The notes under the pieces: model-generated
Told to the model about the DNA's origin: nothing
What the model saw: only the letters and a program-made list of their open reading frames with translations
Databases searched by the model: none
NCBI RefSeq assembly: GCF_029504655.1
Contig: NZ_JAQFIL010000001.1
Span: 4,717,001-4,781,000 of the forward strand
Direction of reading: 5' to 3'
DNA: 64,000 bases
From: Catalinimonas alkaloidigena
GTDB lineage: Bacteria; Bacteroidota; Bacteroidia; Cytophagales; Cyclobacteriaceae
Shown: in pieces, positions 6,025-64,000 of the stretch
How the letters are laid out: every line of letters starts with the position of its first letter
Numbering within the stretch: position 1 is the stretch's first letter
Translations under genes and position numbers: made by a program

Positions 6025-6157
6025 GCGACAATCTCAGGTTAGGTGCTAACAAAATTACGAATATAATCTCATCAAATTATATCATCTCTACTGAAATGCG
6101 CTTTTTGAAAGAATAGTTGCAAGTTCGCAATCTATCAGGCACTGAACTGCTCAGGCG

Positions 6158-7003: not shown

Positions 7004-7023
7004 TAGTGTTTTCTTTCCAACCT

Positions 7024-7068
7024 GATTACCATCCTGGGGATTACCATCCCGGAGATTACCATCCCGGA
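7024..7068. repeat. Three 15-bp tandem units at the susD stop
   Basis: Three near-identical 15-bp units (plus-strand consensus GATTACCATCCCGGA; 7024-7038, 7039-7053, 7054-7068). The last unit encodes the C-terminal Pro-Gly-Trp and stop codon of SusD, so the array is a local triplication of the gene end. It occupies most of the spacer before the EEP hydrolase. Confidence 0.9.
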
Positions 7069-8798: not shown

Positions 8799-8832
8799 GT
8801 GTTTAAAATTTTGGTGCATTGACACAATCATC

Positions 8833-24381: not shown

Positions 24382-25000
24382 ATAATTTCTCGGTATGCAG
24401 GCTTGACCAGATAGGCGTGGCAACATATGCTCTGATAACCTAATAAATTTAATTATTCTCATATGCACCCTGCTGGACTGTCTGTCCCGGATGACATTCA
24501 CAGTTACATAATAAGCTCAAATCAGCACTTTTTTTGCGAAAATCTTTCATAGATCACATTCAAATTAATCTTTGTTTTATTGTACTATTTTAATAATTAA
24601 TATAATAATATCATTATAAAATGAGAGCAAATACCGTTGGTCGGTCATGATTCCAGAAGTTCCCAAAATGCTTATCTGTTAAAATATTGCCCATTATTAC
24701 ATCTGTGTATTTTGTTAAATTGGCTACTGTTTAAGTAAAAAAATAAGTTTTTATTGCGTAAAAAGCAGTTTTCGCTAGCATTAACTTTTCCTGTCTTCCC
24801 AAGCTTTATCCCTTCTTCTTTCATTCCTACATGATCAGGGCTATATCAAAGTTGAAATATCCGCTTTAATATAGCTTTGCAAATAATGAATGTAACTTTA
24901 TCGCTAAAAAGAGAAATTAAATTGCACTAAATCATGATAATTTAGCAAAAATTTGTCCGTATTAGGTAATCTGGCAAATCAAATATTCAGATTGAAGCGT
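24382..25000. other. AT-rich leader region of the giant surface gene
   Basis: About 620 bases with no supported gene. It is strongly AT-rich and contains the promoter at 24852-24879. The rest shows no repeat or RNA structure I can support. Confidence 0.5.
24852..24879 (+). promoter_or_regulatory. Promoter of the giant surface protein gene
   Basis: TTG (24852-24854), 17-bp spacer, TAGCTTTG (24872-24879), a full match to the Bacteroidota -33/-7 pattern. It predicts an mRNA leader of roughly 115 bases before the ATG at 25001. Confidence 0.6.
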
Positions 25001-34000: not shown

Positions 34001-34399
34001 TTATATGATGTGATGCTGATTGCCTTTAACGACAGTGGCTGTTCCGATACCTTACTGATAGAAAGACTGATCAATGTGAAGAAACCAGAGGCGGGTAAAA
34101 CCAGAATTCCCAACTCGTTCACTCCGAATCCTGATGGATCTAATGGAGGAAACTATCAGTATGGAGATGTCAGCAACGATATATTCATCCCTATAATTGA
34201 TGGTGTCTCAGATATGTCCATGACTATCTACAATCGTTGGGGTAAAGTGATGTTTACCAGTAAAAGCAAAAACATAGGTTGGGATGGCTATTATGAAGGA
34301 CAACTTTGTCCGGCGGATGTATATTACTATAAAATTGAGTTGAATTTTTCTAATGGAGAAAGGAAAACGGAGTATGGAGATGTGACATTAATTCGCTAA
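25001..34399 (+). CDS. Giant PKD-repeat T9SS surface protein (SprB-like adhesin)
   Basis: A 3132-residue secreted protein from the ATG at 25001. An in-frame TTG at 24953 is rejected because the signal peptide MKNFSKILFALLFFGLLSEVNAQ starts at 25001. Order: a unique N-terminal region, PKD domains (YEWDFGDSSTSTDVSPTKTYS), PKD-like repeats, six copies of an about 90-residue repeat, nine copies of another of about 95 residues, further PKD domains with WxFGDG motifs, and a C-terminal type B T9SS sorting domain (IPNSFTPNPDG, YNRWGKVMF, GWDGYY, ending YGDVTLIR). Such proteins are exported by T9SS and act as adhesins or gliding adhesins. The PorP/SprF gene downstream is the expected partner. There are few Lys/Arg and many Thr/Ser/Gly residues. 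Confidence 0.93.
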   Translation: MKNFSKILFALLFFGLLSEVNAQNCPTGGGGYIIQSEQLCADQDVQYQIIYPNLKTYNDNKVNIDWGDGTVEEFDLVQNGSMWEYNAHHTYPQGLGDCIYTARASAYVNGTECEESIITKDVIVWDTDDVLGEGLQPNVETYYVCAGNSINVSFEDLTQFTCLDPEHPDNLGRWVEWEYGTANTITGDVKIGGQTKTFPFKEAAEPVWLDPTATSSNVSTLNISVPNTSKSGEFFELTLHNWNSCNPYKDSTGVLTGIPSVSKTVYIRVTNGAHADFEIDNNPACVDNPVLFTNKSSPGMQYEWDFGDSSTSTDVSPTKTYSAPGDYTVSLKVTNTSVTGNTGTCFNTVYKTITILPQPVADFDISPSGPQCGNTNVTLSNTSTNTPSGTTWNWEIRREKTDGQLVDLNGSATAGFAATTEDITSSLPYFGSKPTATYYVKLYANTPNACSDESGWKTLVVNANVGTPVFSSPVTSLCQGNNTTQYNVTATNVVSYLWELTPATAGSISNTGEVSWNSSFSGAATVKVTAKGCGADKSESVNVTVTPAVGDPDPISGDEEVCQGISSSTYSTLASDAISYEWTLLNAGSSSISGSSTSAVVSWDPSFVGTAMIIVRAEGCNGFSAPDTLSVEVIQSPQLDNPASDYEENICSGETASFTPSVTLGGSSFKWTTTVSGSISGVTTSGDQLVGSSISDVLTNSGTITGTVTYHITPYKDSCEGETKDFTVTVNPGKPDDAGIISGPTPAAICEKESGIDFSVAAITNAKDYIWTLPAGASITSGDKTNTITVDFGTVAAGNHVVEVYGENGCGIGASSSFNIEVKPNPDLIVNVTNSEICHEEEAIATLSSSPAFTGTLYSWTIESIGADITGASNESNQTELRQQLSNTGIAPQDITYRITPVLNGCEGDYQDVTFTVNPSPVLTISPTATTLCNGKETDISLSANVSGTTTYNWTAIADEADSLSGFSDGTGDEIKHTLVNTSSKPQKITYTITPTAYGCDGDSKTVEITVQPTPVLTTTVVASAICTEEDAEISLSSNVVGTTFEWTVSSDAGITGAAPGSGSLIQQTLENTTSAPKAVTYTITPKFNGCEGASQDITITVNPKPDLQVTNSSPEICDGEQTNVSLSSLVSGTIISWTASYDATYVSGVSDDSGTKIEQTLSNSSNVVQTVTYHITTEANGCSGESQDIEIKVKPTPILTLNYAGTVICSKDKAEVVFSSSVASGMTYSWTVDISDPSKINGAFPGSGSGFSQTLTNSGTSPVDVTYKVTPSANGCSGEIKEVTFTVNPTISDAVAGGDAELCGLNYDMSATTPAVGSGKWTFVSGPGTASFDDENAPNANVTVSTSGIYTFRWTVSGVCGGSNMNDVTLNFKDYPTTSDISGPTEVCVNSSDILYYVDWHSGSSYSWSVSPDNADAPEVLSSNQIAVLNFGSNPWSGELIVTETNDGCTAPPKKIAINAYSIPVADAGDDQTICANSTTTLGGTPSASGGSGDYSYQWSPTTDLDDANSANPTVTLSSNRTYTLKVTDLNTGCISAIDEVKITVKPQLEAGLINGTQSICSGTAPAAFTQNPASGGDGAYTYQWQISSDGGATYADITGADDELYKENSTLTATTYYRRKVTDGVCGEKITDPIKVTVEPPLTAGTIGTDDIIVAGDTPNKLINIADAQGGSGLQYKWQKSTNGGSTFTDIVGTNSAEYQPGALFMTTVFRRVAFDGVCTDIASNTVTIEIEDAAEAGTIEEDQLICINSVPAPITQKDPATGGVGSFDYRWLYSEDGTNFTVISSENDINYTPVNPLDTTTYYKREVKSGTAGSWVSSNTIIVTVEPELDPGVIGGTQTICEGSNPSAFTEEQAAKGGSGQYGYQWKFSTDPSPGRTYTDIPFATNKLYDEMAPLSDTTYYVREVRSRNGACDPALSNVIVVYVNPALETGTITGEQTICENTRPFTFTQTEASGGNDTLVYQWQRKINNGDFVDIPGADAKEANYTEPDSLVAVAEQITKYTYRRKVTGGVCGYDFSNEIVVTVEPTLNPGDLTGDQVICAGSQPNPFPTQNPASGGSGSYSYQWQKATGNGAFANIDGAESADYIETQNLSDTTYYRRKVFSGECGEQISDTIRVVVLPALDPGSIAEDQAVVLLGTPDKFTEVDPVTGGDPADREYVWQYSSSENGVYTSISSSNSKEYQVTGKLTQTTYYRRGVKSGNCDTFVYTEPVEVIVQTTLLPGAIGGEQTICEGGIPNNIVETVPASGGDVNSYLYRWKYTTDPNEPYQDIDASWVLDPEGQELQFVQGLMDTTYFKREVKSGAYLWIISEDSMVINVQPALQPGSVKIEGADEVCFGDTLGTFEEETAPQGGSGSYEYQWMYATQSGGPYQTIAGATDSVFQAAATLAPDTYYYVRKVISGECDDVLSNELVVTVHELPNVSLASSVPDNIICQWTEVTFTAGGADIYEFFLNGVSVQGPSANNMYITDSLVNMDEVYVVGTDEKSCNAASSSITTLVNDLPTASIEGSTDICKGSQTGLTLRMTGNIPMEVVYTDGIQNYTLKNLSYETILNVKPSVSTTYTLLSVKDANGCAQQISDQEAVVNVGDPVAEFSIQGDNPACNPQTLIFVNENIQEGVSYTWSWGDGTEDVVTTASDSAEIEHTFVNYSNSRDMTFQVTLTATHESIGCTDRAVSSVHVYPSPEVRVEADKQEGCGPLLVNFFNKSFGVDGHRWYYRVKGTDQVLEETASKNASYILPNTTSETITYEVVYEASLDKCPAQPEIIEVVVHPELEPFFTVTPAHQNLPNSTVSISNQTNEGDWDYHWDFGDGNTSTEKDPASHTYEDYGQYIITLTVSNGACEKQYEERVMIDIDPSLPFVEFNVDTHEGCGPLTVTFTNASNYVNPATFQWNFGDGTGASGVEHPIHTYDKPGKYSVKLEAVNIFGEHKVIMKKFLVEVYDQPTAIFSAGPPTVYLPDRPIATVNQSTGATAYEWHFGDGTVSNEFEPTHIYTEEGLYDVMLIAFNDSGCSDTLLIERLINVKKPEAGKTRIPNSFTPNPDGSNGGNYQYGDVSNDIFIPIIDGVSDMSMTIYNRWGKVMFTSKSKNIGWDGYYEGQLCPADVYYYKIELNFSNGERKTEYGDVTLIR
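27480..28870 (+). repeat. Five adjacent about 90-residue PKD-like repeats
   Basis: Within the giant gene, five contiguous units share an ICxxExxxISLSS start, a central W of the form (T/S)W(T/A), a QTLxN segment, VTYxITPxxNGC and a closing xITVNPxP. A sixth, more diverged copy lies upstream near 26920-27200, separated by a different PKD-like unit. They are protein-level repeats with diverged DNA, indicating old duplications. Confidence 0.8.
29641..32262 (+). repeat. Nine tandem about 95-residue repeats in the giant protein
   Basis: Each unit starts LxPGxIxGxQTIC, continues with ASGGxGxYxYQW, then YxDI, TTYYRRxVxSGxCG and ends xVTVxPAL. Nine units can be counted from 29641 to about 32262. Units 2 and 7 have lost the QTIC cysteine (IIVAG and AVVLLG). 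Ig-like repeats of this style are frequent in long Cytophagales surface proteins. Confidence 0.85.
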
Positions 34400-34433
34400 T
34401 GAATTAAAACTTGTATAAACAGTTTGTGTGTAT

Positions 34434-34464
34434 AGCTAGCCTGGAATCAGGCTAGCTTTTTTTT
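34434..34464 (+). terminator. Strong rho-independent terminator
   Basis: Perfect 10-bp stem AGCTAGCCTG (34434-34443) with CAGGCTAGCT (34448-34457), loop GAAT, then a T8 tract. It lies 35 bases after the giant gene and separates it from the PorP/SprF gene, which has its own promoter. Confidence 0.95.
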
Positions 34465-34837
34465 CTTCCCGGAATTTCTTTCCCATCAGCAATTGCTGGT
34501 TTCCAATCATTTTTCAATGCCCTATAAATCAAACAAAGTAAGAAAGTTAATTCTGAGCTTCATATAATGGCTCCTTACTTCAATTGTGCGGTTGTGTTAC
34601 CCGCATCAAAATACTTACTAAATATCACTTTCATTTTCTAAATACATTGTAAGTATGCTCTTCAGGAGTAATAAAAAGGACACTAGCATGATTCTCCATC
34701 CCTCCAAAAAGGTGTAATTTGTAATTTTCTAATAAAATTTATGAATAATACAGGTGTAATATTTTTTGTATTTAACTATTTTTATATATATTTGTATTAT
34801 ATCAATGCCAAATAAACTTTTATCTGACTGAATTATT
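34465..34837. other. AT-rich intergenic region before porP-like gene
   Basis: About 370 bases without a gene. Apart from the promoter at 34765-34794 I see no repeat or RNA structure. Confidence 0.5.
34765..34794 (+). promoter_or_regulatory. Promoter of the PorP/SprF gene
   Basis: TTTG (34765-34768), an 18-bp spacer and TATATTTG (34787-34794), a full Bacteroidota -33/-7 match 43 bases before the ATG at 34838. It shows that the gene is transcribed on its own despite its functional pairing with the giant gene upstream. Confidence 0.65.
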
Positions 34838-35941
34838 ATGAAAGCTTGCAACAAAAGAATAAGCGCCCAGTCAAATACTACTGTCCGTTCTGGAGAAGAT
34901 AGACTTAAAGGTTTAGCAATAAATACTTTCTTTTTATTTTTTATCCTTACCAGCTTAACCAATCAGGTCAATGCTCAGGATCCTCAGTTTAGCCAGTTCT
35001 TCGCTGCTCCTTTGTATTTGAACCCTGCCTTCACGGGTACTACCAAAGAACATCGTTTTGTAGCCAATTATCGGAATCAATGGAGAAATGTAGCAAACGG
35101 ATATGTGACTTATGCGTTTTCCTACGACTACAATATGAGAGATGCGAGAAGTGGTTTCGGCCTGATGGCCACAGCCGATAAAGCTGGTGCCGTAGAAATG
35201 GGAACCAAGAGTGTAGGCTTCTTATATTCTTATAAGATTAAACTGTCAAACAACTGGATCTTAACGCCCGGTCTCCATTTTGCATATGGTAGCAGAGGTA
35301 TTGATAAAGATAAAGTAGTGTTACTGGATCAATTGTCTTACGGAGACGCTACTATCGCTTCAAATGACCCTTTGGTATTCTCACTAAAAGACCACGACTA
35401 CTTCGACTTCGGATCAGGCTTATTGTTGTATAGCAAAACCTTCTGGATAGGGGCTTCTGCTTTCCACATGAATCAGCCTAACATCAGTATGATAAGTGAT
35501 AACAGTGAGCTTGCTATGAAAACTTCTATACATGGAGGAGCTAGAATAAGACTATATAACGGTCCTTTCCGTAGAAATATCGTACCTAGTATCGCTCCAT
35601 CTTTTATTCTGAAAAAGCAGGGAAGCATAGAGCAGTTAGATCTTGGCGTTAACTTCCACTACGATCCTGTAATGTTCGGGATGTGGTATCGTGGTATGCC
35701 CTCCAAACAGAATTTAGAGGAAAAAAATATAAGCCAGGATGCTCTTATTTTCTTAGTGGGTATGAAGCATAAGCAATTGGAGTTTGGCTATAGCTATGAC
35801 GTTACACTCTCTTCCTTAGGACCTACTTCAGGTGGTGCGCACGAAGTGTCTTTGACCTATCATTTGCATAACCCCAATCGTCGTCGTCCTAAAGTAAAAT
35901 ATAAAGATATTCCATGCCCTACTTTCTTGCTGGATAATTAG
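34838..35941 (+). CDS. PorP/SprF family T9SS outer membrane protein
   Basis: A 367-residue protein with a membrane-export signal (residues about 22-46, ending NQVNAQ) and the PorP/SprF start DPQFSQFFAAPLYLNPAFTGT, followed by the family's strand-rich body (NYRNQWRNV, then GFGLMATADKAGAVE, LQLGV-like and FGMWYRG segments). PorP/SprF proteins are outer membrane barrels that bind the T9SS ring or assist secretion of a specific type B client. The giant type B protein immediately upstream is the likely client. The N-terminus is longer than usual; an internal start was not evident. Confidence 0.93.
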   Translation: MKACNKRISAQSNTTVRSGEDRLKGLAINTFFLFFILTSLTNQVNAQDPQFSQFFAAPLYLNPAFTGTTKEHRFVANYRNQWRNVANGYVTYAFSYDYNMRDARSGFGLMATADKAGAVEMGTKSVGFLYSYKIKLSNNWILTPGLHFAYGSRGIDKDKVVLLDQLSYGDATIASNDPLVFSLKDHDYFDFGSGLLLYSKTFWIGASAFHMNQPNISMISDNSELAMKTSIHGGARIRLYNGPFRRNIVPSIAPSFILKKQGSIEQLDLGVNFHYDPVMFGMWYRGMPSKQNLEEKNISQDALIFLVGMKHKQLEFGYSYDVTLSSLGPTSGGAHEVSLTYHLHNPNRRRPKVKYKDIPCPTFLLDN

Positions 35942-40446: not shown

Positions 40447-41796
40447 ATGGAAGAGAGTTGGGGCATGCAAGAGTTTATGGGAAGTGCAGTAGAAGATAAA
40501 CGCGAGGCAAAGAGTTTGTCACTGATGGCTGATCGTCTTTTAGCTAACCCTGAGCTTTCCTTTAGTAGTGCAGTAGGAGAGAATTTCCGTAAATCAGCCT
40601 GGCGGATATTTTCCAAACAGGAAGTAGACGTCAGCTACGGCCACTATAGGCAAACGAGCAAGCGCTGTGCCGACCAGGATGTGGTTTTGGTGAGTCAGGA
40701 TACAACAGACTTGAATTATGCCAGTCATGTCGCTACTGAAGGTCTGGGCGACTTAGGCGGCAGTCATGTAAATCCAGGGCTTTGCCTGCATACGGCCATG
40801 GCTCTGAGTGAGCAGGGAACGGCTTTGGGCCTGGTAGGACAAAAGCTGTGGCCTCCCCAATCCACAGGACGTACAAAGCAGGTGCAGTTTTATCCTTTAG
40901 AAGAAAAAGAAAGTTATCGGTGGGTAGAAGCCCTACAGTGGGTGGATCAGCATTTAGCTAAAGCCAAGAAGGTGATCGTAATCTCCGACAGAGAATCTGA
41001 TTTTTATGAGTACATGGCTGCTCGCCGCTCCAAACATGTAGAATTACTCTTCAGGGCACATCATCTCAACCGAAAGGTGCATTATGAGCAAGAAAAGATG
41101 CTTCTTAAAGAAGTGGTTTTTCCCAATACTACTAAAGTAGAAGTTTACCTGCCCAGGACCAGCAAGAGAAAAGAGCGTAATGCTAAGCTGCAGGTAAGCT
41201 GGGGTAAGATCACATGCCCTGTCCCTACTTATAAAAAAGGAGAAGATATTGACTTATGGGTGGTAGTAGCTCAAGAAACACATACTCCGGCAGGAGAAGA
41301 ACCGCGCAGCGAACCGCCTCTGCTATGGTATTTACTCACTACCATCAATATAGAAGATCAAGCTGCTGCTTTGCTGATGATAGATTATTACCGGAAACGA
41401 TGGGTGATTGAACGCTGGCATATGGTGCTGAAGAGTGGTATGCAGATAGAAAAGCTACAGTTTGATACTTTCACACGACTATCTCATGCCATTGCTATGC
41501 TCTGTATTGTAGCCTGGCAATTGATCTGGCTTAAGCATCTGGCAGCAGAAAGTGCCCAATTAGCTGCAGAGAAAATATTTGAACCGCTACAAATAGAAGT
41601 CTTAGAAAAGCATAGTGGCAGAAAAGAACTCAGTGTACAGCAGGCATTGATCATCATCGCTGCCCTGGCCGGGTTTACGCCTACTAAAAAGCAGCCCTTC
41701 CCTGGAGAAAAAACCATGTGGAGAGGGTGGGCCATCTTCTCTCAACTCTGCCATGGATACCTTCTCGCTTCGCAGATAAATTATGAGACAGGATAA
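40447..41796 (+). CDS. IS4-family transposase
   Basis: A 449-residue DDE transposase of the IS4 family, Tn5-like branch. The N-terminal Tnp_DNA_bind-like region (WGMQEFMGSAVEDKREAKSL) is followed by the catalytic core: D85 in SQDTTDLNY, D181 in ISDRESDFYEY and E322 within the YREK signature (Y315, R318, E322, K329 in YRKRWVIERWHMVLK). The C-terminal dimerisation region is present. The reading frame is intact, so the element may be active. The stop codon lies inside the right terminal repeat. The target is double-strand DNA, moved by cut and paste with hairpin ends if it works like Tn5. Confidence 0.95.
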   Translation: MEESWGMQEFMGSAVEDKREAKSLSLMADRLLANPELSFSSAVGENFRKSAWRIFSKQEVDVSYGHYRQTSKRCADQDVVLVSQDTTDLNYASHVATEGLGDLGGSHVNPGLCLHTAMALSEQGTALGLVGQKLWPPQSTGRTKQVQFYPLEEKESYRWVEALQWVDQHLAKAKKVIVISDRESDFYEYMAARRSKHVELLFRAHHLNRKVHYEQEKMLLKEVVFPNTTKVEVYLPRTSKRKERNAKLQVSWGKITCPVPTYKKGEDIDLWVVVAQETHTPAGEEPRSEPPLLWYLLTTINIEDQAAALLMIDYYRKRWVIERWHMVLKSGMQIEKLQFDTFTRLSHAIAMLCIVAWQLIWLKHLAAESAQLAAEKIFEPLQIEVLEKHSGRKELSVQQALIIIAALAGFTPTKKQPFPGEKTMWRGWAIFSQLCHGYLLASQINYETG

Positions 41797-53373: not shown

Positions 53374-53377
53374 GGAC

Positions 53378-53447
53378 CACACTGGGTGTTCCATACTGGA
53401 TGTTCCATATTGGATGTTCCACACTGGGTGTTCCACACTGGGTAATT
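53378..53447. repeat. 14-bp tandem repeat array, five units
   Basis: Five units of 14 bp starting right after the response regulator stop: CACACTGGGTGTTC (53378-53391), CATACTGGATGTTC, CATATTGGATGTTC, CACACTGGGTGTTC and a last CACACTGGGTAATT (53434-53447). Units vary at four positions. No spacers or cas genes, so it is a minisatellite and not a CRISPR array. Confidence 0.92.
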
Positions 53448-53677: not shown

Positions 53678-54204
53678 ATTTACCTTTGTTCATATACAGT
53701 CTGATTCTTCTGTCAAGCCTATGCTTAAATTGGAGACCATTTTTAGATTTGAGGTCTATTCATTCTACTTTAAATTATCATGCTGAGCTTAGTATAGATA
53801 AGCCCGTCCTTCTGGACAAATTCAAAAGATACATTTGTCATTCACATCTGACCTGTCTCAGATCAGCATAGCGGTTTGCCTGTTAGACACACATATAAAA
53901 TATGCTACTACCCATGTTTTTTTTTATCATTCAATATTTCATATAAGATTCACCATATTTATTTTAAGATTAGTTTAATAGCCATCTTAAATAATAGCTT
54001 TTATTTTTTCACTGAGGAGGAATAGGAGTAAAAAAAACAGAAAAATACTCACTAGTGGGTATTGACTTTTTGACAATAAGAAAATCTACGTAAAGTAATC
54101 CTATTTAATTAAATATTATTTCAATTCTCTATGGTTGAGAGCTTGTTTTTACTTATTTTTAATATTGAACATTACATCAAAAGTACATTCATTTCACATT
54201 TGTG

Positions 54205-55245
54205 ATGATAGAGCCGTTTAAATTTTTTGCCAGTTTATATGTTTGCTTAGCGGTGGCTTTAGCTCCATTCGTCACTTTTGCTCAACCTCAAGACGTTATT
54301 TATACTACCGAGGGTGGTGCAGTTAAAGGATTTATAAAGAGCGTTGATGATTCCCGAATTCTTTTTGAAAACAATCAATCTATCAGTTTGGGAAAACTAA
54401 TACTGGGCATCAAGGTTAATGGTGATATTTTAACAGCCTCCACTAAAGATCAGCACTATAAATGGATTTTTAATGACAACCCCCAACACGATAAAATAAT
54501 CACTTCTAAGCATGAGGTTTTTGCAGCCGAAAAGGTAGATATCATTAATGAAAAAATAGCCTTTCAGGATCTCTTCAATGGTAGATACTTTGTATTGGAT
54601 AAATCCGAAGTAGCCTTGATATTAAGAAACTCAGGCCATCATTATTTGGCAGATCCGATAAAAGCAAAAAAAAGCCTGGAGTCTTTAGATAACCTTAATA
54701 CTTATTCTTCTCGGGAGCCAACAAGCACCGTTGAGTTAAGCGCGGAGGAGCAGGATTATTTTTCCCGCAGAGCTTTAAAAAAAACCCAGGCTTTAAGTGT
54801 GTACCTAAGCATTATTTCTGACGCTAAGGCCGATGAGCTAGATCAGGATGATGCAGTACAACAAGCCATACAGCTTTTCATTGATGAAGACAGATTGGTA
54901 GAAGTTACGAGCCTGAACAGCGAAAATGTACGGAGTTATAAGATTGGAGAGTATTTGAACCATGTCAGGGTGCTGCCTTACGCAAGGGTAGAAATATTAT
55001 GGAACCAGGTAGCTTACGTCAATCAGATCAAGCGAAGTGCCGATGGTAATTATTATGGTCTGATTACCGTAGAACAAATTTTCAGAGGATTCAACGAAGA
55101 GCAGGTAGTAGTGTATGAGGACTTAACTCGAAAAAATCTGCAAGTAGTCGTAAAGCCTTACAATCAGGTAATTGATGGCAAGGAAATTAAAAAGTGGGAT
55201 GTGTTCCTTTCGGACATAGGCGTACAAAATACCAGTTCATTATGA
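54205..55245 (+). CDS. Exported protein of unknown function (347 aa), operon gene A
   Basis: Not recognised. From the ATG at 54205 the product has a signal peptide (residues about 1-26, ending VTFAQ), a strand-rich N-terminal part (DVIYTTEGGAVKGFIKSVDD, with GKLILGIKVNGD), a helical middle (AEEQDYFSRRALKKTQALSVYLSIISDAKADELD, quoted in part) and a C-terminal strand domain ending DVFLSDIGVQNTSSL. No sorting domain or catalytic motif is seen. Its stop overlaps the next start (ATGA at 55242-55245), so genes A and B are translationally coupled. First gene of a four-gene exported-protein operon ending in a T9SS protein. Confidence 0.8.
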   Translation: MIEPFKFFASLYVCLAVALAPFVTFAQPQDVIYTTEGGAVKGFIKSVDDSRILFENNQSISLGKLILGIKVNGDILTASTKDQHYKWIFNDNPQHDKIITSKHEVFAAEKVDIINEKIAFQDLFNGRYFVLDKSEVALILRNSGHHYLADPIKAKKSLESLDNLNTYSSREPTSTVELSAEEQDYFSRRALKKTQALSVYLSIISDAKADELDQDDAVQQAIQLFIDEDRLVEVTSLNSENVRSYKIGEYLNHVRVLPYARVEILWNQVAYVNQIKRSADGNYYGLITVEQIFRGFNEEQVVVYEDLTRKNLQVVVKPYNQVIDGKEIKKWDVFLSDIGVQNTSSL

Positions 55246-56048
55246 GGCTGCTCCTAAGCTTAGTGCTTATCACAAATTGTGCAATGGGGCAAAATACACC
55301 TATGCATTTTGACGATGAAAATTTTGCGTACCAGGTAAAGCAGGTGGATGAGTTTATAGAGCGCTTTAATAATACCAATGAAACGCTGATCAAAAGTTAT
55401 CTCAAAGACAGGTACAACCTTGAGGTATCCAGAGAGGAACTGGTCGCCAGTTTATTTGATTTTTCAAAAAAAGACTGGAATAAGCAACAGATAGAACAGT
55501 TTTTAGAAGATGTAGTCTACCAAACCGACCCTCCATACATTAGTTTTTATGACCAGGGCTGGTATGCAAAAGTAGTTTGCAAGGGTAGGTATGATAGAAA
55601 AAATGTTTATTTCTCACTAATTATGTCTGTCAAGCATGACCTGGATAACGAAACCGTCAACTGGGTAATCAACAGTATAGACGCAGATTTTTTAAGGATT
55701 CATGGAGAGGTAACAAATGATATGATACTGCCGCCTAACAGCCACGGAACAGATTTTCTGGAGCTGAAAAGAATCTTTAATTCTCCTGAACTATACATAG
55801 ATCGTAGCCGCTCAAATGAAAATCCGGTAAATAAACTTTTACAGAGTGTGAGGCAGGGAAAGCTACAATACATGCATGTGGACAATGTATCTTATCATTT
55901 TATGCAGTTGGATAACTGGATTTTCAAAGTAGAAGAATTTGACCGGCAGGAAAAAAATAATGGTTGGCTGATCAGCGAACTATACACTGCTGACCAGGCT
56001 GAGAAAGACCGGTACTTAAGCAGTCAATTATACATTTTGCCTCACTAG
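55242..56048 (+). CDS. Exported protein of unknown function (268 aa), operon gene B
   Basis: Not recognised. From the ATG at 55242 (overlapping the gene A stop) the product has a short signal peptide (MRLLLSLVLITNCAMGQ), then a mostly alpha/beta domain: DDENFAYQVKQVDEFIERFN, ETLIKSYLKDRYNLEVSREEL and a repeated-strand middle, WYAKVVCKGRYDRKNVYFSLIM. It resembles NTF2-like or lipocalin-style small periplasmic domains at low confidence. An in-frame upstream start at 55194 would remove the signal and is rejected. Gap to gene C is 23 bases. Confidence 0.8.
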   Translation: MRLLLSLVLITNCAMGQNTPMHFDDENFAYQVKQVDEFIERFNNTNETLIKSYLKDRYNLEVSREELVASLFDFSKKDWNKQQIEQFLEDVVYQTDPPYISFYDQGWYAKVVCKGRYDRKNVYFSLIMSVKHDLDNETVNWVINSIDADFLRIHGEVTNDMILPPNSHGTDFLELKRIFNSPELYIDRSRSNENPVNKLLQSVRQGKLQYMHVDNVSYHFMQLDNWIFKVEEFDRQEKNNGWLISELYTADQAEKDRYLSSQLYILPH

Positions 56049-56071
56049 CTTATGATATATATTCTTATGAT

Positions 56072-57169
56072 ATGAAGGGAAAAATACATTACCTGATGCT
56101 TATGCTTTGTCTGAGTATTACAATTTCCAGTACTCAGGGACAAGGCCTGACAGAATTTGACAAAAGTCAGATTGAGAGAAGAGCGAGGTTGAAAATGGAT
56201 GAGTTTGAAGAATTACTTTTTCTAATCTCTGACCCTACCCGTAGTAGAGGAGCAGTAAACAGGTATATTCTGAGCAGCTACTCTCAGGAAGACAGCCTGT
56301 TTAACCGGGTTTTCTACAACGAAGATGTCATCATTGAAGACGATATTTCAAAGATTGTGCTCACAAATGACAACATTGAAGTATCAGCACTTGATGTAGT
56401 AACCTACCTTAATAATTTTAAACTGCAGTACGAAAAGAATATTGAAAAGACCGTTCACTTCACTGACTATAGCTTTTCTGAGCCTGTCCAGGACGCATAT
56501 ACCTATATTGTTGTCAGTTATACCAGTAAGTTTAATGGAAAAAATATTAACCTTGATGACTATAACTATCCTGCTGTAAAAAGAAAAGCCACCTTGAGGA
56601 CAGAATACAACTTTAAGCGTGATGCATGGCAGGTATGGATCTCAGGCGTAAACTACGACCGTGATGTATTGACTTCAGAAGCAGAGGAGTTGACGGTGAT
56701 TGAAGATAAAGACCTGAAAAAAGAGACAATCGCTCCACCTCCTGATCAGCAAGAAGAAGAAAGCCTCCCTGAGCTTCAGTTTACCTCTACCATTCCAAAA
56801 AATATTAAAAAAGGAGCAAGCCTCCCTTTGAAATGGAACAACTCCGTTGAGGATGCGGAAATCAGTCTCTATCAGGAAGGGCAGGAGATGATGACCTTAA
56901 GAAAAGGTTTATATGGACAGCAATGGGATTGGAATGTAAATCAAAAGCCCGGCAAAAATTACAGCATTACGCTATACGAACCAGCTACCAACAGAACAGT
57001 GAAGAGCTCTTCTTTCCAGCTTAAGCCTCGCTTTCCATTGGTATTAAAAGTTGGAATTCCTTTAGCAGCAATAGGGGTAGCGGTATTACTACTAAATGAT
57101 CCTGGTCCTGGCCCCGGACCTGAGCCAACGCAAGATCTCTCAGAGCCTCCCGGTTTACCTACGAATTAG
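56072..57169 (+). CDS. Exported protein with C-terminal membrane anchor (365 aa), operon gene C
   Basis: Not recognised as a family. A signal peptide (MKGKIHYLMLMLCLSITISSTQGQ) is followed by a helical/strand domain to about 215, an acidic linker (PPPDQQEEESLPELQF), an Ig-like domain (about 240-320, with IPLKWNNSVEDAEISLYQEG and QWDWNV, ending SITLYEP) and one transmembrane helix (PLVLKVGIPLAAIGVAVLLLNDP) with a short Pro/Gly-rich tail outside it. The layout suggests a periplasmic protein anchored in the inner membrane by its C-terminus. Genes of a four-gene set with 44 bases before gene D. Confidence 0.78.
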   Translation: MKGKIHYLMLMLCLSITISSTQGQGLTEFDKSQIERRARLKMDEFEELLFLISDPTRSRGAVNRYILSSYSQEDSLFNRVFYNEDVIIEDDISKIVLTNDNIEVSALDVVTYLNNFKLQYEKNIEKTVHFTDYSFSEPVQDAYTYIVVSYTSKFNGKNINLDDYNYPAVKRKATLRTEYNFKRDAWQVWISGVNYDRDVLTSEAEELTVIEDKDLKKETIAPPPDQQEEESLPELQFTSTIPKNIKKGASLPLKWNNSVEDAEISLYQEGQEMMTLRKGLYGQQWDWNVNQKPGKNYSITLYEPATNRTVKSSSFQLKPRFPLVLKVGIPLAAIGVAVLLLNDPGPGPGPEPTQDLSEPPGLPTN

Positions 57170-57213
57170 CCAAGCGAAGATTAAAAACAACGACCCTTTG
57201 AAACACATTCTGT

Positions 57214-60200
57214 ATGAAAAAATGTTGTAAACAAATCACTATTGGTTTACTAATATTCATTAGTATAATATCAAGCTCACCTTTAGTTGCACAAACTCTG
57301 GACGACTACAAGCTTGTTACATCTGAGGGCACAGCCAATGCTGTAGATACTTATATTGACCAGTCCACAGGTGACTATTACCTAATAGGCCTGATGAACA
57401 AAGCAATTACATTTAGAGGCTGGGGAAGTAGTCGTACGCTGAATGATGATCCCCTAACGCGTGATTTCTTTTACGCAAAAGCTAATTCATTAGGTGTACA
57501 GCATCTTTACAGAATCTCAGTTCAGGGAGATGAAGCCTATATAAGTAATATTGCAGTCGGAAAAGAGTATGTGTACGTGCTTGGCTCTTTTACAGGCTCA
57601 CTAAGAGTATTTGATAGCAATGGTAATGTAATAGCAAACGACTTTGGAAGTACAGTAGTCAATTCAAATGGGAATACCGATGCGTTTCTGTTGAAGATAC
57701 AAAAAAGTAATGGGCAACTGCGAAGAAGCTATGCCATAGGAGGTGCAGGAAGAGATTTTGGCCACAAGGTAGTTATAGATAATACCAATGATGTTATGAT
57801 AGGCGGGAGATTTAATGGCACTGTCAACTTCGGGCTAAATTTCCTAGACTTTGTCTCTAGGACGAGCGATGGTAATGATTTGTATGTGGTTAAATATGAT
57901 AGCGATGACTTTTTTGTTGACTTTGCACAAATAGGTGGGGATGAACCACAGGATCAGATTTGGGCGATGACATCAAATAATAATAATGATATTTTTATAT
58001 CCGGAGTGTTCAACAGAAGTGTAGAAATAGGGTCTTTTTCATTGAATCCCGATAAAGTCAAACAGTTTTTTGTAGCCAAACTGGATGTCAACCTTAATCC
58101 ACAATGGCTTAAACTTTTAGAAAGTGACTCTACTACCACAGAAGTTAGAGATTTAACATTTGATGAATACAGTCAGAACCTTTACCTGCTTGGAAGAATA
58201 GAAGGTAACCCAAAGTACGATGGGACTAGCCTCAATACGCCATCTCCGAATGATGATGCTTTACTATTAAAAATAAATTCTAACAATGGTTCACTTGTGA
58301 AATCAAGTATTTTTGGAGGAAACAGTTATGAAGATGGCAAACAAATTACATTTGACTCGTTCGGTAATTACTTTATTACAGGCACTTTCAATAATACATT
58401 TACCATTTCAAGTAATAACCTTAGCAAAACCACCAATGGAAGTACAAACAGTACTTTTTTAGCAGCATTTAACAGAAACGATGATATCGTATACCTCAAC
58501 AGTTTCACCTCTTCCAACACAGTATTCGGAAGCAGATCTCTAATATTAGCCGAGGGTAGTGAGTTGCAACTTAGTGTGCCTCTTGTATATAATAATAATG
58601 TAGCCGTAGGGCTGGATGCGGAAGAAATAATTGTTAATAATTCAGGTAATCTGGATTCATATATTGGAAGTTATAAATTTAGCACCATACCTATAATCAT
58701 CAGCGGTGCTCATGATTCTGACAATGGCTCAACGGATAGATTTTATGATTATATAGTGTTTGGAATAAACCTGGGCTCTGATGACTTAGCACTACAATCC
58801 AGGTTCGTAGATGAGAACGGAAATTATACCGACTTTATTACCCCTACTTCTGATGGCCCAGAGGACGTAAAATTTAGTATTCCCACCAACATTGTTGCAG
58901 GAATTTCTTACCGACTTGAAATGAATAAATCAGAATACAAAGATATATTTCGTTTCAATACTTTTAGTATTCCTCCCGATATACATCAAACTGGATCGGA
59001 AGCAGACGTAGTCGCCGGGGATAACCTCAATATCCCTGGCCGCTACTTCGGGAACCAGACCAGTGGGGTAAGCGTAAGTTTAGTAAATGAGGAAAATGGG
59101 AATGTGGTTCCTGCTCAGGTAAGTTCAGTAGCTCCTAATATGATTACCATAAGTATTCCCCAAGCCTATCCAGGTCGGTATACGGAACGAGTAACCGTAA
59201 ATGGTGAGACAACGGATGGGGGGAATATCATAAATGTATTCCCTCAAATCACTGAAATCATTCCTACAAACAATATTCCCGGAGGTAATATGGTGATCAA
59301 TGGGAACACATTTATAGACGACAGCCATGCTGAAGATAAACTGGAAGTCAGGTTGATAGAAGAGGATAATACTACAAACACAATTGCTATTACTGACTTT
59401 ACGAGCGTAGAAGCTGAAAAAATCACCCTGAAGCTTCCTGAAGATTTAGCCGATGGTACGTATCAGGTAGAGGTAGAAACAGATGGATTTGTTTCCAATA
59501 AAAAAACCATCACGATAGAGAACACAAACCCTGTTGTAAACGCTCTCCTGCCTACTTCAGGTCTGGTTGGAGATGAAATTACCATTTCTGGGCTTAATCT
59601 TGAAGCAAGCACTGTAAAAGTAACCATCAATGGAGTTGAAGCTTCCCTGGTTACTGCAAGTGATATTGAAGTTAAAGCAGTGGTTCCTGAGCTTGAACCC
59701 GGTGTTTATGAGGTGATACTGGCATTAGATGAAGTAGCTTATAAATTGGCAGACACGTTTACTGTGCTCGCGCCTCCTATTATAGTAAATCCCTTGAATG
59801 TTACTTCCGGTGTAGCAGGGGGTGAAATTATTATTACAGGACTCAACCTGGAAGCCAGTACGGTACAGCTTACAGTTGATGGAGTAGATGCTCCTATCAT
59901 AAGCGCAAGTGATACTCAGATCAAAGCTACAATACCTGAACTTGAAGCAGGCACATATCAGGTTTTGCTCTATTTAGATGGTGAGGAGTATAACATAACA
60001 GATACGTTTAAAATTATTTTTAATAAGCCTGTTATCACCGAAGTAGATCAGGACTCTGTGGATATAGGAACTATCGTTACAGTGAGTGGCTTAAATCTTA
60101 ATCTGGCAACAAGTGTTTCTTTGGGCAGTAATGAAACGTCCTTTGAGACTGTTGATAACACTACTTTAAAACTAACTGTACCGGATTTATTTCCTGGAAA

Positions 60201-62124
60201 TTACCGAATTAGCATAAGTGACCAAAGTGGCGAGGAACCCGCTACTTATGAGTCATTGATAGTCTCCCAAAAAATCAGCAGTTTATCTCCCTCTGAAGTA
60301 TTTAGCAGTAGCGAGATTACAATAGTTGGAAGTAATTTCCGCTCTATAGCCTCCCCTCCTACTATTGAAGTATTACTGAATGACTTAGCAGTAGATGATA
60401 TCAGTGTAAATGAGGAAGGCACTGAAATCTCTTTTATGCTAACTGTCAGTCAAGACATCATCAATGAAGAATATACTGTCAAAGTCAATGTCAATGGTGT
60501 TGTCGTAACTGCCGATGAAACCATTCTGATCAAGGAGGATGAAACAGCTGCACTGGTAGTATCTACTTTTCCTTCCAATGCGCTTAGAAAAAATGAATTT
60601 AATGTTTCTGTTCAGGCATCTGATGCTGAGTCCAGCATACAAAAAGTAGAAGCCGCCTTTGCCGGAATCATGGATGAAGCATTCGGTCCCTTTCAGGAGA
60701 TCACACCAGACGAAAGCCTTTACACACTGTTGACCGATAATGGAGATGAGTTAGGCGTAAAGTACCAATTCAAAGTCACTAACGGTGCTGGCCTGGAGAA
60801 AATAGAGACAGGCCGTACCTATTGGCGTTATGCTGAAAACATTGAAAAAGTAAACCGTAAGAGCTTTACTTCCGCTCCTACTCAACAAAACTACCAACTG
60901 GTGGCTATTCCCTTTAAGCAGCAGACAGTAAATGCAGCTTTAGGAAACAAAGAGTATAAAAAAGAAGACTGGCGCTTATTTCGCCTCAACCAGGCTAATA
61001 CTAGTGAAAATGTATATCAGGAGTATAATGCGGGATTTACCCAATTTAAAGCTGGTGAAGGGTACTGGCTCATTGCTAAAGAAGGTATACTTGATAGTAT
61101 AAAAGGTGATGTGGCAGAGCCTAATGAAGAGGGGAATATTATCATTCCCGTAAGGGAGGGATGGAATCTTATAGGTAACCCCTTTCCTTTTGCGCTGGAT
61201 TGGAGCGTAGTGGTATCAGCTAACCCTGATATCTTTTTAGATCAGGCAAGACTTAGTGTATATAATGGTAGCTATAATAAAGAAGATGAAAGCTTATCAG
61301 CTTATGAAGGAGCATTTGTTAACATCAAAGAAAGTGGCAACTTAGTTATTCCCTTTAGTGCAAAAGCCGGAAACAATCAAAAACAAAGCAATGTGGAAAA
61401 AGAAAAAGGAGTCACTCTGGACGCATCAGCATGGCAGGTGAGTTTATCAGTGCATGTTTCTGACGAATTGAAAGAGGACTTAATATTAGGTATGCATAAT
61501 GCATCGGAATCAGGTAAAGATTTTTATGATGCAGATGTTTTTCCATCGTTTTTTAGTTCTTCTGCTGCCTCATTTACCAGAGAAGGCCTGGTGCTAGCCA
61601 CTGACATCATTCCTCCATCTTCATTTGCGGAATGGACCGTTAAGCTTGATGAAAAAGTTAATAATGAAACTGTCTATCTCAGTTGGGATAATGATCAGTG
61701 GGTGAATAATAAATTCAGACTATGGCTCTATGATGAAAATCAAAAGCAGGTGATAGATATGCAGGCTGCGCAATCTTACCAATTCCAACCGGCTGCCTCT
61801 CAACATCTTAAAGTATTGTATGGTACTGAAGAAGCATTGCTCAGGTACGTACTTCCTACAGAGGTACAAATCGGACCGGCATACCCTAACCCAGTTGTGG
61901 ATGAGGTCAATGTTACTTTGATGGTTCCCGATCATGCTAGTGGTTTCGTCAACTGGCAATTAGTGGATATAAAAGGAAGAATTACTAAATCCGGGACGAT
62001 ACCACTGCACTACGGCATACAGAAAACCTCCGTTCAGCTCGCTGAAAAGCAGGGGGTATATTTACTACAATTTTTGTCTTCGGAAGGTGAAGTGCTAAGC
62101 CAGGAAAGGCTCATCATCAGGTAA
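57214..62124 (+). CDS. Large T9SS protein with beta-propeller and IPT repeats (1636 aa), operon gene D
   Basis: An exported surface protein. Order: signal peptide (about 1-26, SSPLVAQ), a beta-propeller-like N-terminal region (about 30-560) with repeated YLLGR/FGGNSYEDGK/NIFI-type motifs, about six IPT/TIG-like domains (about 590-1105, for example PTSGLVGDEITISGLNLEAS and NVTSGVAGGEIIITGLNLEAS, which are clear duplicates), a further region with YQLVAIPFKQQ and GWNLIGNPFPFALDW, and a C-terminal type A T9SS sorting domain (IGPAYPNPVVDEVNV, ending SQERLIIR). The type A signal implies sortase-linked or A-LPS attachment after T9SS export. Ends 31 bases from the convergent kinase gene. Confidence 0.9.
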   Translation: MKKCCKQITIGLLIFISIISSSPLVAQTLDDYKLVTSEGTANAVDTYIDQSTGDYYLIGLMNKAITFRGWGSSRTLNDDPLTRDFFYAKANSLGVQHLYRISVQGDEAYISNIAVGKEYVYVLGSFTGSLRVFDSNGNVIANDFGSTVVNSNGNTDAFLLKIQKSNGQLRRSYAIGGAGRDFGHKVVIDNTNDVMIGGRFNGTVNFGLNFLDFVSRTSDGNDLYVVKYDSDDFFVDFAQIGGDEPQDQIWAMTSNNNNDIFISGVFNRSVEIGSFSLNPDKVKQFFVAKLDVNLNPQWLKLLESDSTTTEVRDLTFDEYSQNLYLLGRIEGNPKYDGTSLNTPSPNDDALLLKINSNNGSLVKSSIFGGNSYEDGKQITFDSFGNYFITGTFNNTFTISSNNLSKTTNGSTNSTFLAAFNRNDDIVYLNSFTSSNTVFGSRSLILAEGSELQLSVPLVYNNNVAVGLDAEEIIVNNSGNLDSYIGSYKFSTIPIIISGAHDSDNGSTDRFYDYIVFGINLGSDDLALQSRFVDENGNYTDFITPTSDGPEDVKFSIPTNIVAGISYRLEMNKSEYKDIFRFNTFSIPPDIHQTGSEADVVAGDNLNIPGRYFGNQTSGVSVSLVNEENGNVVPAQVSSVAPNMITISIPQAYPGRYTERVTVNGETTDGGNIINVFPQITEIIPTNNIPGGNMVINGNTFIDDSHAEDKLEVRLIEEDNTTNTIAITDFTSVEAEKITLKLPEDLADGTYQVEVETDGFVSNKKTITIENTNPVVNALLPTSGLVGDEITISGLNLEASTVKVTINGVEASLVTASDIEVKAVVPELEPGVYEVILALDEVAYKLADTFTVLAPPIIVNPLNVTSGVAGGEIIITGLNLEASTVQLTVDGVDAPIISASDTQIKATIPELEAGTYQVLLYLDGEEYNITDTFKIIFNKPVITEVDQDSVDIGTIVTVSGLNLNLATSVSLGSNETSFETVDNTTLKLTVPDLFPGNYRISISDQSGEEPATYESLIVSQKISSLSPSEVFSSSEITIVGSNFRSIASPPTIEVLLNDLAVDDISVNEEGTEISFMLTVSQDIINEEYTVKVNVNGVVVTADETILIKEDETAALVVSTFPSNALRKNEFNVSVQASDAESSIQKVEAAFAGIMDEAFGPFQEITPDESLYTLLTDNGDELGVKYQFKVTNGAGLEKIETGRTYWRYAENIEKVNRKSFTSAPTQQNYQLVAIPFKQQTVNAALGNKEYKKEDWRLFRLNQANTSENVYQEYNAGFTQFKAGEGYWLIAKEGILDSIKGDVAEPNEEGNIIIPVREGWNLIGNPFPFALDWSVVVSANPDIFLDQARLSVYNGSYNKEDESLSAYEGAFVNIKESGNLVIPFSAKAGNNQKQSNVEKEKGVTLDASAWQVSLSVHVSDELKEDLILGMHNASESGKDFYDADVFPSFFSSSAASFTREGLVLATDIIPPSSFAEWTVKLDEKVNNETVYLSWDNDQWVNNKFRLWLYDENQKQVIDMQAAQSYQFQPAASQHLKVLYGTEEALLRYVLPTEVQIGPAYPNPVVDEVNVTLMVPDHASGFVNWQLVDIKGRITKSGTIPLHYGIQKTSVQLAEKQGVYLLQFLSSEGEVLSQERLIIR

Positions 62125-62155
62125 GCCAGGCCGAAATGGAAAAAGCGTTAAGGCA

Positions 62156-63691
62156 TCAGTATTTGTTTATTGATAGGGTTTTGATTTTATCACCCTTCAG
62201 TTCAGTAAGTAAAGTATCTATCACCCAGCTACGTTCTTCTATACCGGAGGTGTTCACTACATACCGCATAAAGCTTTCTATGCTTTCCTGGTTAATACTA
62301 TCATTAACAGTGAAATACACTTTTGCTTCTTCATCAACAAAGTACTCATTTACATAATTATTGATTCTGCTTAACCTGAGATTTGTATTGATAATTTCAT
62401 TATCAAGAGATTCAATTTCTCTGAGTAAATTATCATATAGCATATTTTTCTGAGCATTGGTTAAGCCAAGGGGTAATGGCAATGATTTGGGCTGATTGGC
62501 TAGGGTAGAATCCTCTGTCAGTATTGTATCTGCTTCAATCACATTTTGCCCTGATGCTTTAATGGGCGGCATAGTTTCCTGAGTGAGCCGGGAAGAATCT
62601 GTGCCTGCTGAAGTAGAATCCATCAACTGTGCGGGAACACTTTCGCTCTTCTGGCTCTGTATCTGCGCAGTTTCTTCATTTTTTACAGCCGGTGCATCAG
62701 AGGAAGTAAAGACATACCAGAAACCAAATGCCAGCAATACGAATACCAGCAGGATGCCGGCAATCATAGCTTTATTCATTTTCTTTTTGGTAGGAACAGG
62801 GGCCTGCAATATCTCTATCAGTTCCAGGCTGGATTGCACTCTCTTCTTGGCATCCTTGATGAGGCATTTGCTGATTATTTTCCTATAGGGCTCAGGTACA
62901 TTTTTAATTTCTGAGGGGAGTGGGTTATGCAATACATTATGCATTATTTCCATTGGGCTTTGGGAAGTATTTCTATCGCCAAAAGGAGATTTATCAGTAA
63001 AGATCTCTGTCAGTATCACGCCAAACGACCACAAATCCACATTGGTAGTAATCTGCTGATTGATCCCGTACTTTTTAGGGTCAAACTGTTCAGGAGCCAT
63101 ATATTCCATCTTACCCACCAGCTCAGATGAGGCCTTTTTTTGCCCCATATTGAGCGTCTTCATATCAATTTCTTTGGATATCCCAAAGTCAGCAATTTTG
63201 GGAATCCAGGTCTCCTTCTCTTTTACCATCAAAATATTATCAGGAGAAAGGTCACGGTGTATGACTCTTTTTTCAGTATGAATATAGTGTAAGCCCTGAA
63301 GTATTTCTTTGATTACTTCCTTGAAAACTTCTTTTGAGGGTGAGGATTTCAAGAAATCCAGCAAATTACCCGCATTGGCATATTCAAGTATACCCACCTG
63401 CACATCTTCGGCTATACCAAAGCTATTGGTAAACCTTACGATACGAGCGTCATGCACTCTAATGATATTTTTGTGGGTAAACCTGCGCGAGTTGCGCATT
63501 TCGCTTATTATATCATATTTCTGGGCATCGGTATTTGTGTAAAATTTGAGCGCGACTGTTTCTTCAAATTGACGATCGTACGCCTGATAAACTTTGGCAA
63601 AGCCTCCCTCCCCTAGTAAATTGGTATGATCGTAAACAAACCTTCTTCTAAAATCCTGTTCAGAGATGACTACTTTTTCACCCTCCTGCAT
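62156..63691 (-). CDS. Transmembrane Hanks-type Ser/Thr protein kinase
   Basis: A 511-residue receptor-like kinase. The kinase domain (about 22-295) has the glycine loop GEGGFA (27-32), Lys49 in VALKFY, HRD at 145-147 in HRDLSPDNIL, DFG at 168-170 and MAPEQF at 198-203; all catalytic residues are intact, so it should be active. One transmembrane helix follows (about 306-328, MIAGILLVFVLLAFGFWYVF), then a periplasmic part of about 180 residues with a low-complexity Ser/Thr/Gln linker and a predicted helical C-terminal domain. It faces the T9SS operon and is divergent from an FHA-like gene, a typical substrate-reader for such kinases. Confidence 0.95.
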   Translation of the reverse strand: MQEGEKVVISEQDFRRRFVYDHTNLLGEGGFAKVYQAYDRQFEETVALKFYTNTDAQKYDIISEMRNSRRFTHKNIIRVHDARIVRFTNSFGIAEDVQVGILEYANAGNLLDFLKSSPSKEVFKEVIKEILQGLHYIHTEKRVIHRDLSPDNILMVKEKETWIPKIADFGISKEIDMKTLNMGQKKASSELVGKMEYMAPEQFDPKKYGINQQITTNVDLWSFGVILTEIFTDKSPFGDRNTSQSPMEIMHNVLHNPLPSEIKNVPEPYRKIISKCLIKDAKKRVQSSLELIEILQAPVPTKKKMNKAMIAGILLVFVLLAFGFWYVFTSSDAPAVKNEETAQIQSQKSESVPAQLMDSTSAGTDSSRLTQETMPPIKASGQNVIEADTILTEDSTLANQPKSLPLPLGLTNAQKNMLYDNLLREIESLDNEIINTNLRLSRINNYVNEYFVDEEAKVYFTVNDSINQESIESFMRYVVNTSGIEERSWVIDTLLTELKGDKIKTLSINKY

Positions 63692-63860
63692 AATGTATGA
63701 TTCAGTGTCTGAAGTTAAATAAAATTGCTAAGTGAGCAGCAAATAAATTTAACATTATTTATTGTAATTGTTAAATGTTCAGCACAGACAAAATGAGGAT
63801 TTTCAATAAAATTTTAATATATTTAACTACAATTAGTCCTTAGCTTATCACAACATTTTT

Positions 63861-64000
63861 ATGTCCAGAGCTACACAATCCTTTAAGACAGGCATGTCTT
63901 TTATAGGGGGTGGAAATGTTCCTGCTTACACACTTGAATTTCTTACCGCCTCACCTAAACACGAGGTGTCAAGCTTTGAAACTATAGTAGTGCCATATAT
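63861..64000 (+). CDS. FHA-like protein, N-terminal part, cut by window end
   Basis: An open frame from the ATG at 63861 continues past the window edge. The visible 46 residues read MSRATQSFKTGMSFIGGGNV, then PAYTLEFLTASPKHEVSSFE and TIVVPYI. The YTLEFLT...H...E-IVV-YI pattern is the style seen just before the GR-containing core of FHA domains in Bacteroidota, but the diagnostic core lies outside the window. It is divergent from the Ser/Thr kinase gene with 169 bases between them, supporting an FHA reader of phospho-threonine. Identity is tentative; the frame itself is well supported. Confidence 0.6.
   Translation, partial: MSRATQSFKTGMSFIGGGNVPAYTLEFLTASPKHEVSSFETIVVPY

Follow-up and report, generated by a model that had tools for sequence, protein, structure and literature searches.

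A Bacteroidota type VI secretion locus with a putative threonine-phosphorylation module and a candidate envelope input arm

The window analysed here, a 64,000-nucleotide stretch of a 7.9-Mb genome (G000:C1:4717001-4781000), carries a four-gene surface operon, A-D, that converges on a kinase gene at the edge of a type VI secretion system (T6SS) cluster. Our favoured interpretation, held with slightly better than even confidence, is that the locus is a Bacteroidota T6SSiii under threonine-phosphorylation control, with A-D as its surface or periplasmic input arm. The T6SS identity of the cluster is near certain, and phosphorylation control of the T6SS with an envelope input arm is the best-supported reading; the link from A-D to the kinase is one that we infer from position, recurrence and topology. 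If correct, this reading would extend threonine-phosphorylation control to the Bacteroidota T6SS and would link two secretion systems, with T9SS cargo as input and T6SS as output, via an unnamed, widely distributed envelope family.

The operon lies on the plus strand. Gene A (54202..55245, 347 aa) has a GTG start with an ATG at 54205; gene B (55242..56048, 268 aa) begins at a first in-frame ATG overlapping the end of A by 4 bases; gene C (56072..57169, 365 aa) follows after 23 bases and gene D (57214..62124, 1636 aa) after a further 44. D converges, with a gap of 31 bases, on the kinase gene kin1 (62156..63691, minus strand), which is a different transcription unit. This layout is in full agreement with the first-pass annotation, made from the sequence alone, as is its failure to recognise a family for A-C, since none of the three matched a Pfam or NCBIfam family above its cut-off. 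By sequence, A-B-C is a conserved, unnamed envelope protein family. Signal peptides had been proposed for all four genes: a simple hydrophobicity scan detected N-terminal segments in A and D, but the N-termini of B and C fell below its threshold and are signal-like by eye. The same scan placed a transmembrane segment (TM) at residues 323-341 of C, in keeping with the C-terminal anchor described earlier.

Gene A is predicted to consist of a signal peptide, an N-terminal beta domain and a C-terminal half with an NTF2-like fold (model residues 181-347). VirB8 and TraM are NTF2-like periplasmic secretion proteins, and gene A would share this fold with them; Foldseek matches of the predicted structure include TraM (3wz3, rank 38, E 0.062), although ordinary NTF2-like proteins outscore it. 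Gene B belongs to a conserved family with VKQxDEF and GWLI stretches. Gene C comprises an N-terminal domain, an Ig-like stretch, the TM and a proline-rich tail, where the Ig-like assignment is that of the first-pass annotation and has no family match. The N-terminal half of C is homologous to the C-terminal half of A (hhalign probability 96.6%, E 5e-10, 162 columns), and the C-terminal module of C stands alone elsewhere, upstream of very large genes. Gene D contains six TIG/IPT stretches and partial similarity to an SBBP-like beta-propeller. The type A T9SS sorting domain reported at its C-terminus was recovered with TIGR04183 (NCBIfam; 26.2 bits against a cut-off of 23), while Pfam's T9SS model scored 18.5 bits, under its cut-off of 27. 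A second A-B copy in the source genome stands with an LRR protein.

On the other side of the convergence, kin1 encodes an intact Hanks-type Ser/Thr kinase with one TM, as had been proposed: it scores 163.4 bits with Pkinase (Pfam), retains the VALK, HRD and DFG motifs and has a PpkA-like layout, with the TM at 310-328 followed by a 183-residue tail that is periplasmic by topology. The next gene, called FHA-like in the earlier reading, indeed encodes an FHA protein; it starts at 63861 on the plus strand and leaves the window (full gene L004:10861-12378, 505 aa), with the FHA domain lying just outside at G000:C1:4781002-4781196 (PF00498, E=1.6e-14). The order of its parts is FHA, TM, coiled coil and trypsin-like domain, hence our term FHA-protease; the His and Ser of the trypsin-like domain, and an aligned Asp picked by eye, are conserved across G000, G091 and G025. 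Against the T6SS-type Fha family TagH (TIGR03354) the protein scores 25.6 bits (cut-off 120.25), with the FHA domain alone matching. Beyond the window and on the same strand, genes for p261, a membrane-spanning PP2C phosphatase, a double FHA protein and a kinase-FHA fusion follow, to L004:16985. The 261-aa product of p261 has a signal-like start, no family match and an end that by eye resembles a degenerate trypsin domain, and the PP2C also matches NF033484 (NCBIfam) at 231.1 bits against a cut-off of 230. In total, the module holds two kinases with intact motifs, one PP2C phosphatase and three FHA proteins, which supports the earlier suggestion of kinase-FHA signalling. A hydrophobic-helix scan of 24 cluster proteins yielded four inner-membrane candidates with one TM each: kin1, the FHA-protease, the PP2C and C. 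Judged on their sequences, the kinase, FHA and PP2C genes make up a phosphorylation module that resembles PpkA/PppA/Fha and accompanies a Bacteroidota T6SS.

The T6SS genes lie directly to the right of the signalling genes, on the minus strand (L004:17045 to L005:10772), so that extension past the window, as the first-pass annotation had advised, led from the FHA core through further signalling genes to a T6SSiii core. Their order is Ssp4-like effector, PAAR, TssK, TssG, TssF, TssE, a 164-aa gene, VgrG, Hcp (TssD), TssC, TssB, a 136-aa gene that is HNH-like by eye, a ClpV-type ATPase and a LuxR-type gene called by eye. Scores above cut-off were obtained for TssC (646.7 bits), TssD (81.9), TssF (27.6), gp25/TssE (44.1), PAAR (94.7) and the VgrG hub and OB domains (84.4 and 75.3). 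TssK, TssG and TssB match their own families below cut-off, and the Ssp4-like effector scores 193.5 bits over residues 12-279 of 285, under the cut-off of 300. The ATPase, whose best score is with ClpB and next best with ClpV (neither reaching cut-off), is assigned to ClpV on the basis of context and synteny. The single locus contains TssB, C, D, E, F, G, H, I and K, the core set of T6SSiii. Since the kinase and FHA genes belong to this cluster, control of the T6SS is a likelier output than control of surface-complex assembly, the output proposed earlier.

In the mechanism that we envisage, D would be exported to the surface by the T9SS, while A, B and C would assemble in the periplasm into a complex containing NTF2-like domains, in which C would be tethered by its C-terminal TM and would turn its Ig-like module towards D. 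The kin1 tail in the periplasm would receive the signal of a surface or envelope change, as perhaps would the portions of the FHA-protease and PP2C on that side of the membrane. Kin1 and kinase-FHA would then phosphorylate partners bound by FHA domains, which would license baseplate and sheath assembly, and the PP2C would reset the phosphorylation state. In this way A-D may give the cell a means of monitoring its surface and of setting off the T6SS.

The A-D/kinase arrangement is kept in the same-genus genome G091, including the convergence of D and the kinase, and for that reason is probably more than chance. C is 52% identical there, the block is syntenic from the LuxR-type gene to A, with unlabelled genes in place of the Ssp4-like and 164-aa genes, and the kinase/FHA-protease/p261/PP2C/FHA/kinase-FHA set is retained. 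The other same-genus genome searched, G012, does not keep the arrangement and yielded no C and no TssC. The expectation that the six genes stay together therefore held in G091, but the whole block is conserved in this one congener only, and a kinase adjacent to A-B-C-D, with D included, is confined to this genus (G000 and G091). In the T6SS genome G025 the parts are dispersed: the signalling set, with a p261-like gene, forms a stand-alone module on contig C4, A-B-C-D lies beside TssR-like/TssK/TssN on C12 and beside TssR-like/TssN on C23, and an A/C fusion with D stands upstream of an eCIS (eCIS_core, CIS_tube, CIS_TMP) on C45. The T6SS of G101 is surrounded by three kinase blocks. Each includes a PP2C and a C protein 880-920 aa long (TPR repeats at the end in the two scanned), and one block also has A and B. 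G027 and G099, which have no TssC, carry kinase-A-B-C, and G030 carries kinase-PP2C-C-FHA-FHA with no B match. FHA-protease relatives occur in 7/148 family genomes (G000, G091, G008, G025, G030, G101, G138); in genus g30 (G030, G101, G138) the FHA-TM half alone matches, and G008 (83% complete), G030 and G138 have no TssC match despite these relatives.

T9SS cargo genes are common in this bacterial group. In genomes of other genera (G101, G027, G099) a T9SS type B giant neighbours the kinase and A-B-C, and in G030 one neighbours the kinase and C, without B. Type B domains exceeded the cut-off of 35 in G101 (47.6 and 53.7; a third protein reached 31.7), G027 (39.4), G099 (44.4) and G030 (47.2), and PorP/SprF exceeded 90.55 in G027 (114.6), G099 (94.9) and G030 (94.5), with the single G101 protein scanned slightly under it at 88.0. 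The T9SS-domain scan of D homologues covered those of G025 C12 and C45, G071, G098 and G091: type A domains passed the cut-off of 23 in G025 C12 (23.1), G071 (34.0) and G098 (29.2), that of G025 C45 scored 19.0, and the D of G091 gave no sorting-domain match at E 0.01, its C-terminus being similar by eye. The giants beside kinases favour the earlier idea that the kinase senses or controls the surface complex, but kinase-free A-B-C-D loci speak against it.

Those loci are central to a rival explanation that we consider possible but rather unlikely, namely that A-D encodes a surface structure or adhesin independently of the T6SS/kinase cluster, which it merely adjoins, with conservation in the congener reflecting shared ancestry. 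A-B-C-D without an adjacent kinase occurs at two loci in G025 and in G071, G125 and G098, of which G098 has no TssC; the first-pass annotation had named kinase-free homologues, or a right-hand gene that is not FHA, as grounds against its proposal, and only the former were found. G071 and G125 have their T6SS far from A-B-C-D, and neither these two nor G020 gave a Hanks kinase match (PF00069, E 1e-10). The retention of the full arrangement in a single congener and the separate, convergent transcription unit also fit an independent operon. Repeated closeness to T6SS genes (specialised A-B-C in G000, G091, G101 and G025 C12 and C23) and to kinases in other genera (G101, G027, G099) argues against it, as does the distribution of B. 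Among 148 family genomes, 9 with and 139 without TssC, B in general occurs in 97, and specialised B, defined as scoring over 250 bits by a split chosen after the scores were seen, with 9/11 specialised loci having been rows of the search profile (A1), which raised their scores, occurs in 6/9 TssC-positive genomes (G000, G091, G025, G071, G101, G125) and 4/139 TssC-negative ones (G099, G098, G027, G020, all with A-B-C). This enrichment is significant by genome (Fisher p=1.2e-6) and by genus (4/7 versus 2/77, p=2.6e-4), with shared ancestry not fully removed from either. The 10 specialised-B genomes contain 16 PF00069 matches at E 1e-10, 11 of them clustered: 9 in T6SS or A-B-C clusters and 2 in the stand-alone module of G025. 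The remaining five are outside these clusters: G000 has two, at 6.93 Mb, G101 has two and G098 has one.

Phylum-wide, A-B-C also adjoins MoxR/Bat, ubiquitin-like conjugation and caspase-like genes, and is therefore not T6SS-specific. This would suit a role for A-B-C in envelope quality control, as a general adaptor serving machines that remodel or modify (ClpV, MoxR/Bat, ubiquitin-like conjugation and caspase-like proteins), with T6SS and kinase as two of several uses, an explanation to which we give little credence. It accommodates the MoxR AAA, DUF58, vWA and BatD-like neighbours in L105, L112 and L117 (by clustering, one member each scanned), kinase and PP2C neighbours in L105 and L107, a DnaK-like gene in L105 by eye, ThiF and E2-like neighbours in L115, a caspase-like gene family in 10 loci (one member scanned) and the LRR context of the second A-B copy; several of these contexts are based on one to four loci, however, and the recurrence of T9SS giants and kinases with specialised copies is left unexplained.

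Quite improbable in our estimation is an exchanged T6SS membrane complex, in which kinase, FHA-protease, PP2C and periplasmic A-B-C would form a baseplate docking platform replacing TssN and its partners, the anchor acting as a phospho-switch. TssN, the hub of the known Bacteroidota T6SS inner-membrane complex, gave no match over cut-off in the G000, G091 and G101 genomes, and the same search found it over cut-off in all six remaining TssC-bearing genomes sampled from the family (best hits at least 131.5 bits). Pfam searches with 20 cluster proteins gave no match to any Tss membrane-complex family. The T6SS loci of G091 and G101, like that of G000, carry kinase, PP2C and FHA genes, and TssN absence coincides with kinase-bearing T6SS loci at p=0.012 (n=9, ancestry ignored); both TssN-less lineages have a kinase, a PP2C and an FHA-TM protein within the T6SS locus. 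On a TssC tree of 11 rows, with a very long G332 row (its ORF checked) and a weak fork placing G101 (71/76), TssN absence takes two changes (G000/G091 and G101), and the three genomes were never joined in 200 bootstrap trees (0/200). A single TssR/O-like query matched G071, G125 and G025 and not G000, G091, G101 or G332, its sensitivity being limited in that it missed G332 despite that genome's TssN and, judged by eye, short TssO-like ORF next to TssK. In Hymenobacter L113, A-B-C lies near a T6SS together with TssN; in the present data, then, absence of TssN is tracked by the kinase/FHA-TM set but not by A-B-C. TssN and the signalling module do co-occur in G025, albeit on different contigs, and a further two TssC genomes have neither a TssN match nor a known kinase link.

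Compared with the T6SSiii of Bacteroidota described by Bongiovanni et al. (2024, PMC10781749), the locus has the same core set, with Bacteroidota-type TssC (PF17541) and TssD (PF17642). It differs in that TssN, which that paper describes as almost ubiquitous, was undetected here, and in its kinase and FHA genes, neither word occurring in the paper's main text. For threonine-phosphorylation control, PMC10482370 and PMC12607579 describe TagQ/TagR, RtkS and TssW, which reside in the periplasm or outer membrane, as acting on PpkA, a membrane kinase. No Pfam or NCBIfam model links A, B or C to TagQRST, RtkS or TssW above cut-off. As in the PpkA-Fha-PppA pathway with TagQRST, RtkS or TssW described there, the locus has a Hanks kinase that crosses the membrane once and extends a tail past it, and unites PP2C, FHA, nearby envelope genes and T6SS in one cluster. 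In contrast to that pathway as described, the PP2C here is membrane-spanning, as is one of the FHA proteins, which also has a trypsin-like domain, and the second kinase is fused to FHA. By analogy, the locus would follow the design of TagQRST-PpkA-Fha-PppA, RtkS-PpkA or TssW-PpkA-Fha but use other envelope components.

Beyond the A-B-C-D set, pairs of the envelope-protein genes A and B adjoin one shared gene family in ten loci (L118-L124, L126, L128 and L129), whose hosts are for the most part Bacteroidales. The caspase-like label for this family comes from one scanned member, that of L120, which matched Peptidase_C14 with 23 bits against a cut-off of 21.4. Elsewhere, A-B is found with ThiF (E1), an E2-like protein and a short protein judged by eye to resemble ubiquitin (L115, positions 4939-10696), and these neighbours constitute a bacterial ubiquitin-like conjugation set.

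The genome of C. alkaloidigena itself carries a second A-B set (L138 7447-12006, corresponding to 3159447-3164006 of contig C1), in which B is followed by an 817-aa leucine-rich-repeat protein. An 811-833-aa gene occupies the corresponding place after B in five additional loci, and low-scoring copies of B are present in most genomes of the family. The B proteins of three records titled Thalassobius/Thalassovita (Pseudomonadota; L093, L095 and L096) are nested among those of Bacteroidota; these records are probably misnamed or mixed bins.

Proteins of 241-253 aa encoded in L046-L051 match only the Ig-TM half of C, and very large genes lie directly 3′ of them in all six fetched loci, some of these genes being truncated where the stretch or contig ends. 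The C-terminal half of C is thus a mobile module that is paired with giants. On contig C45 of genome G025, an eCIS (L039 and L147) has an A/C fusion and a D-like gene on its upstream side, with a PKD protein in between, and a caspase-domain gene on its downstream side.

A second, unrelated kinase locus of C. alkaloidigena (L160 7521-12566; contig C1, 6923521-6928566) comprises a gene read by eye as vWA-like, followed by two divergent kinase-like frames. Within the window, a tandem array of about five 14-bp copies (CCACACTGGGTGTT) lies upstream of gene A (53377-53443), and a 449-aa transposase-like gene was read by eye at 40447-41796. Inspection by eye also revealed a 3148-aa PKD-like giant and, after it, a PorP/SprF-like gene (24953-35941 for both); the C-terminal end of the giant resembles a T9SS type B domain. 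By the same reading, the two form the cargo-plus-anchor pairing seen beside the relatives' kinases.
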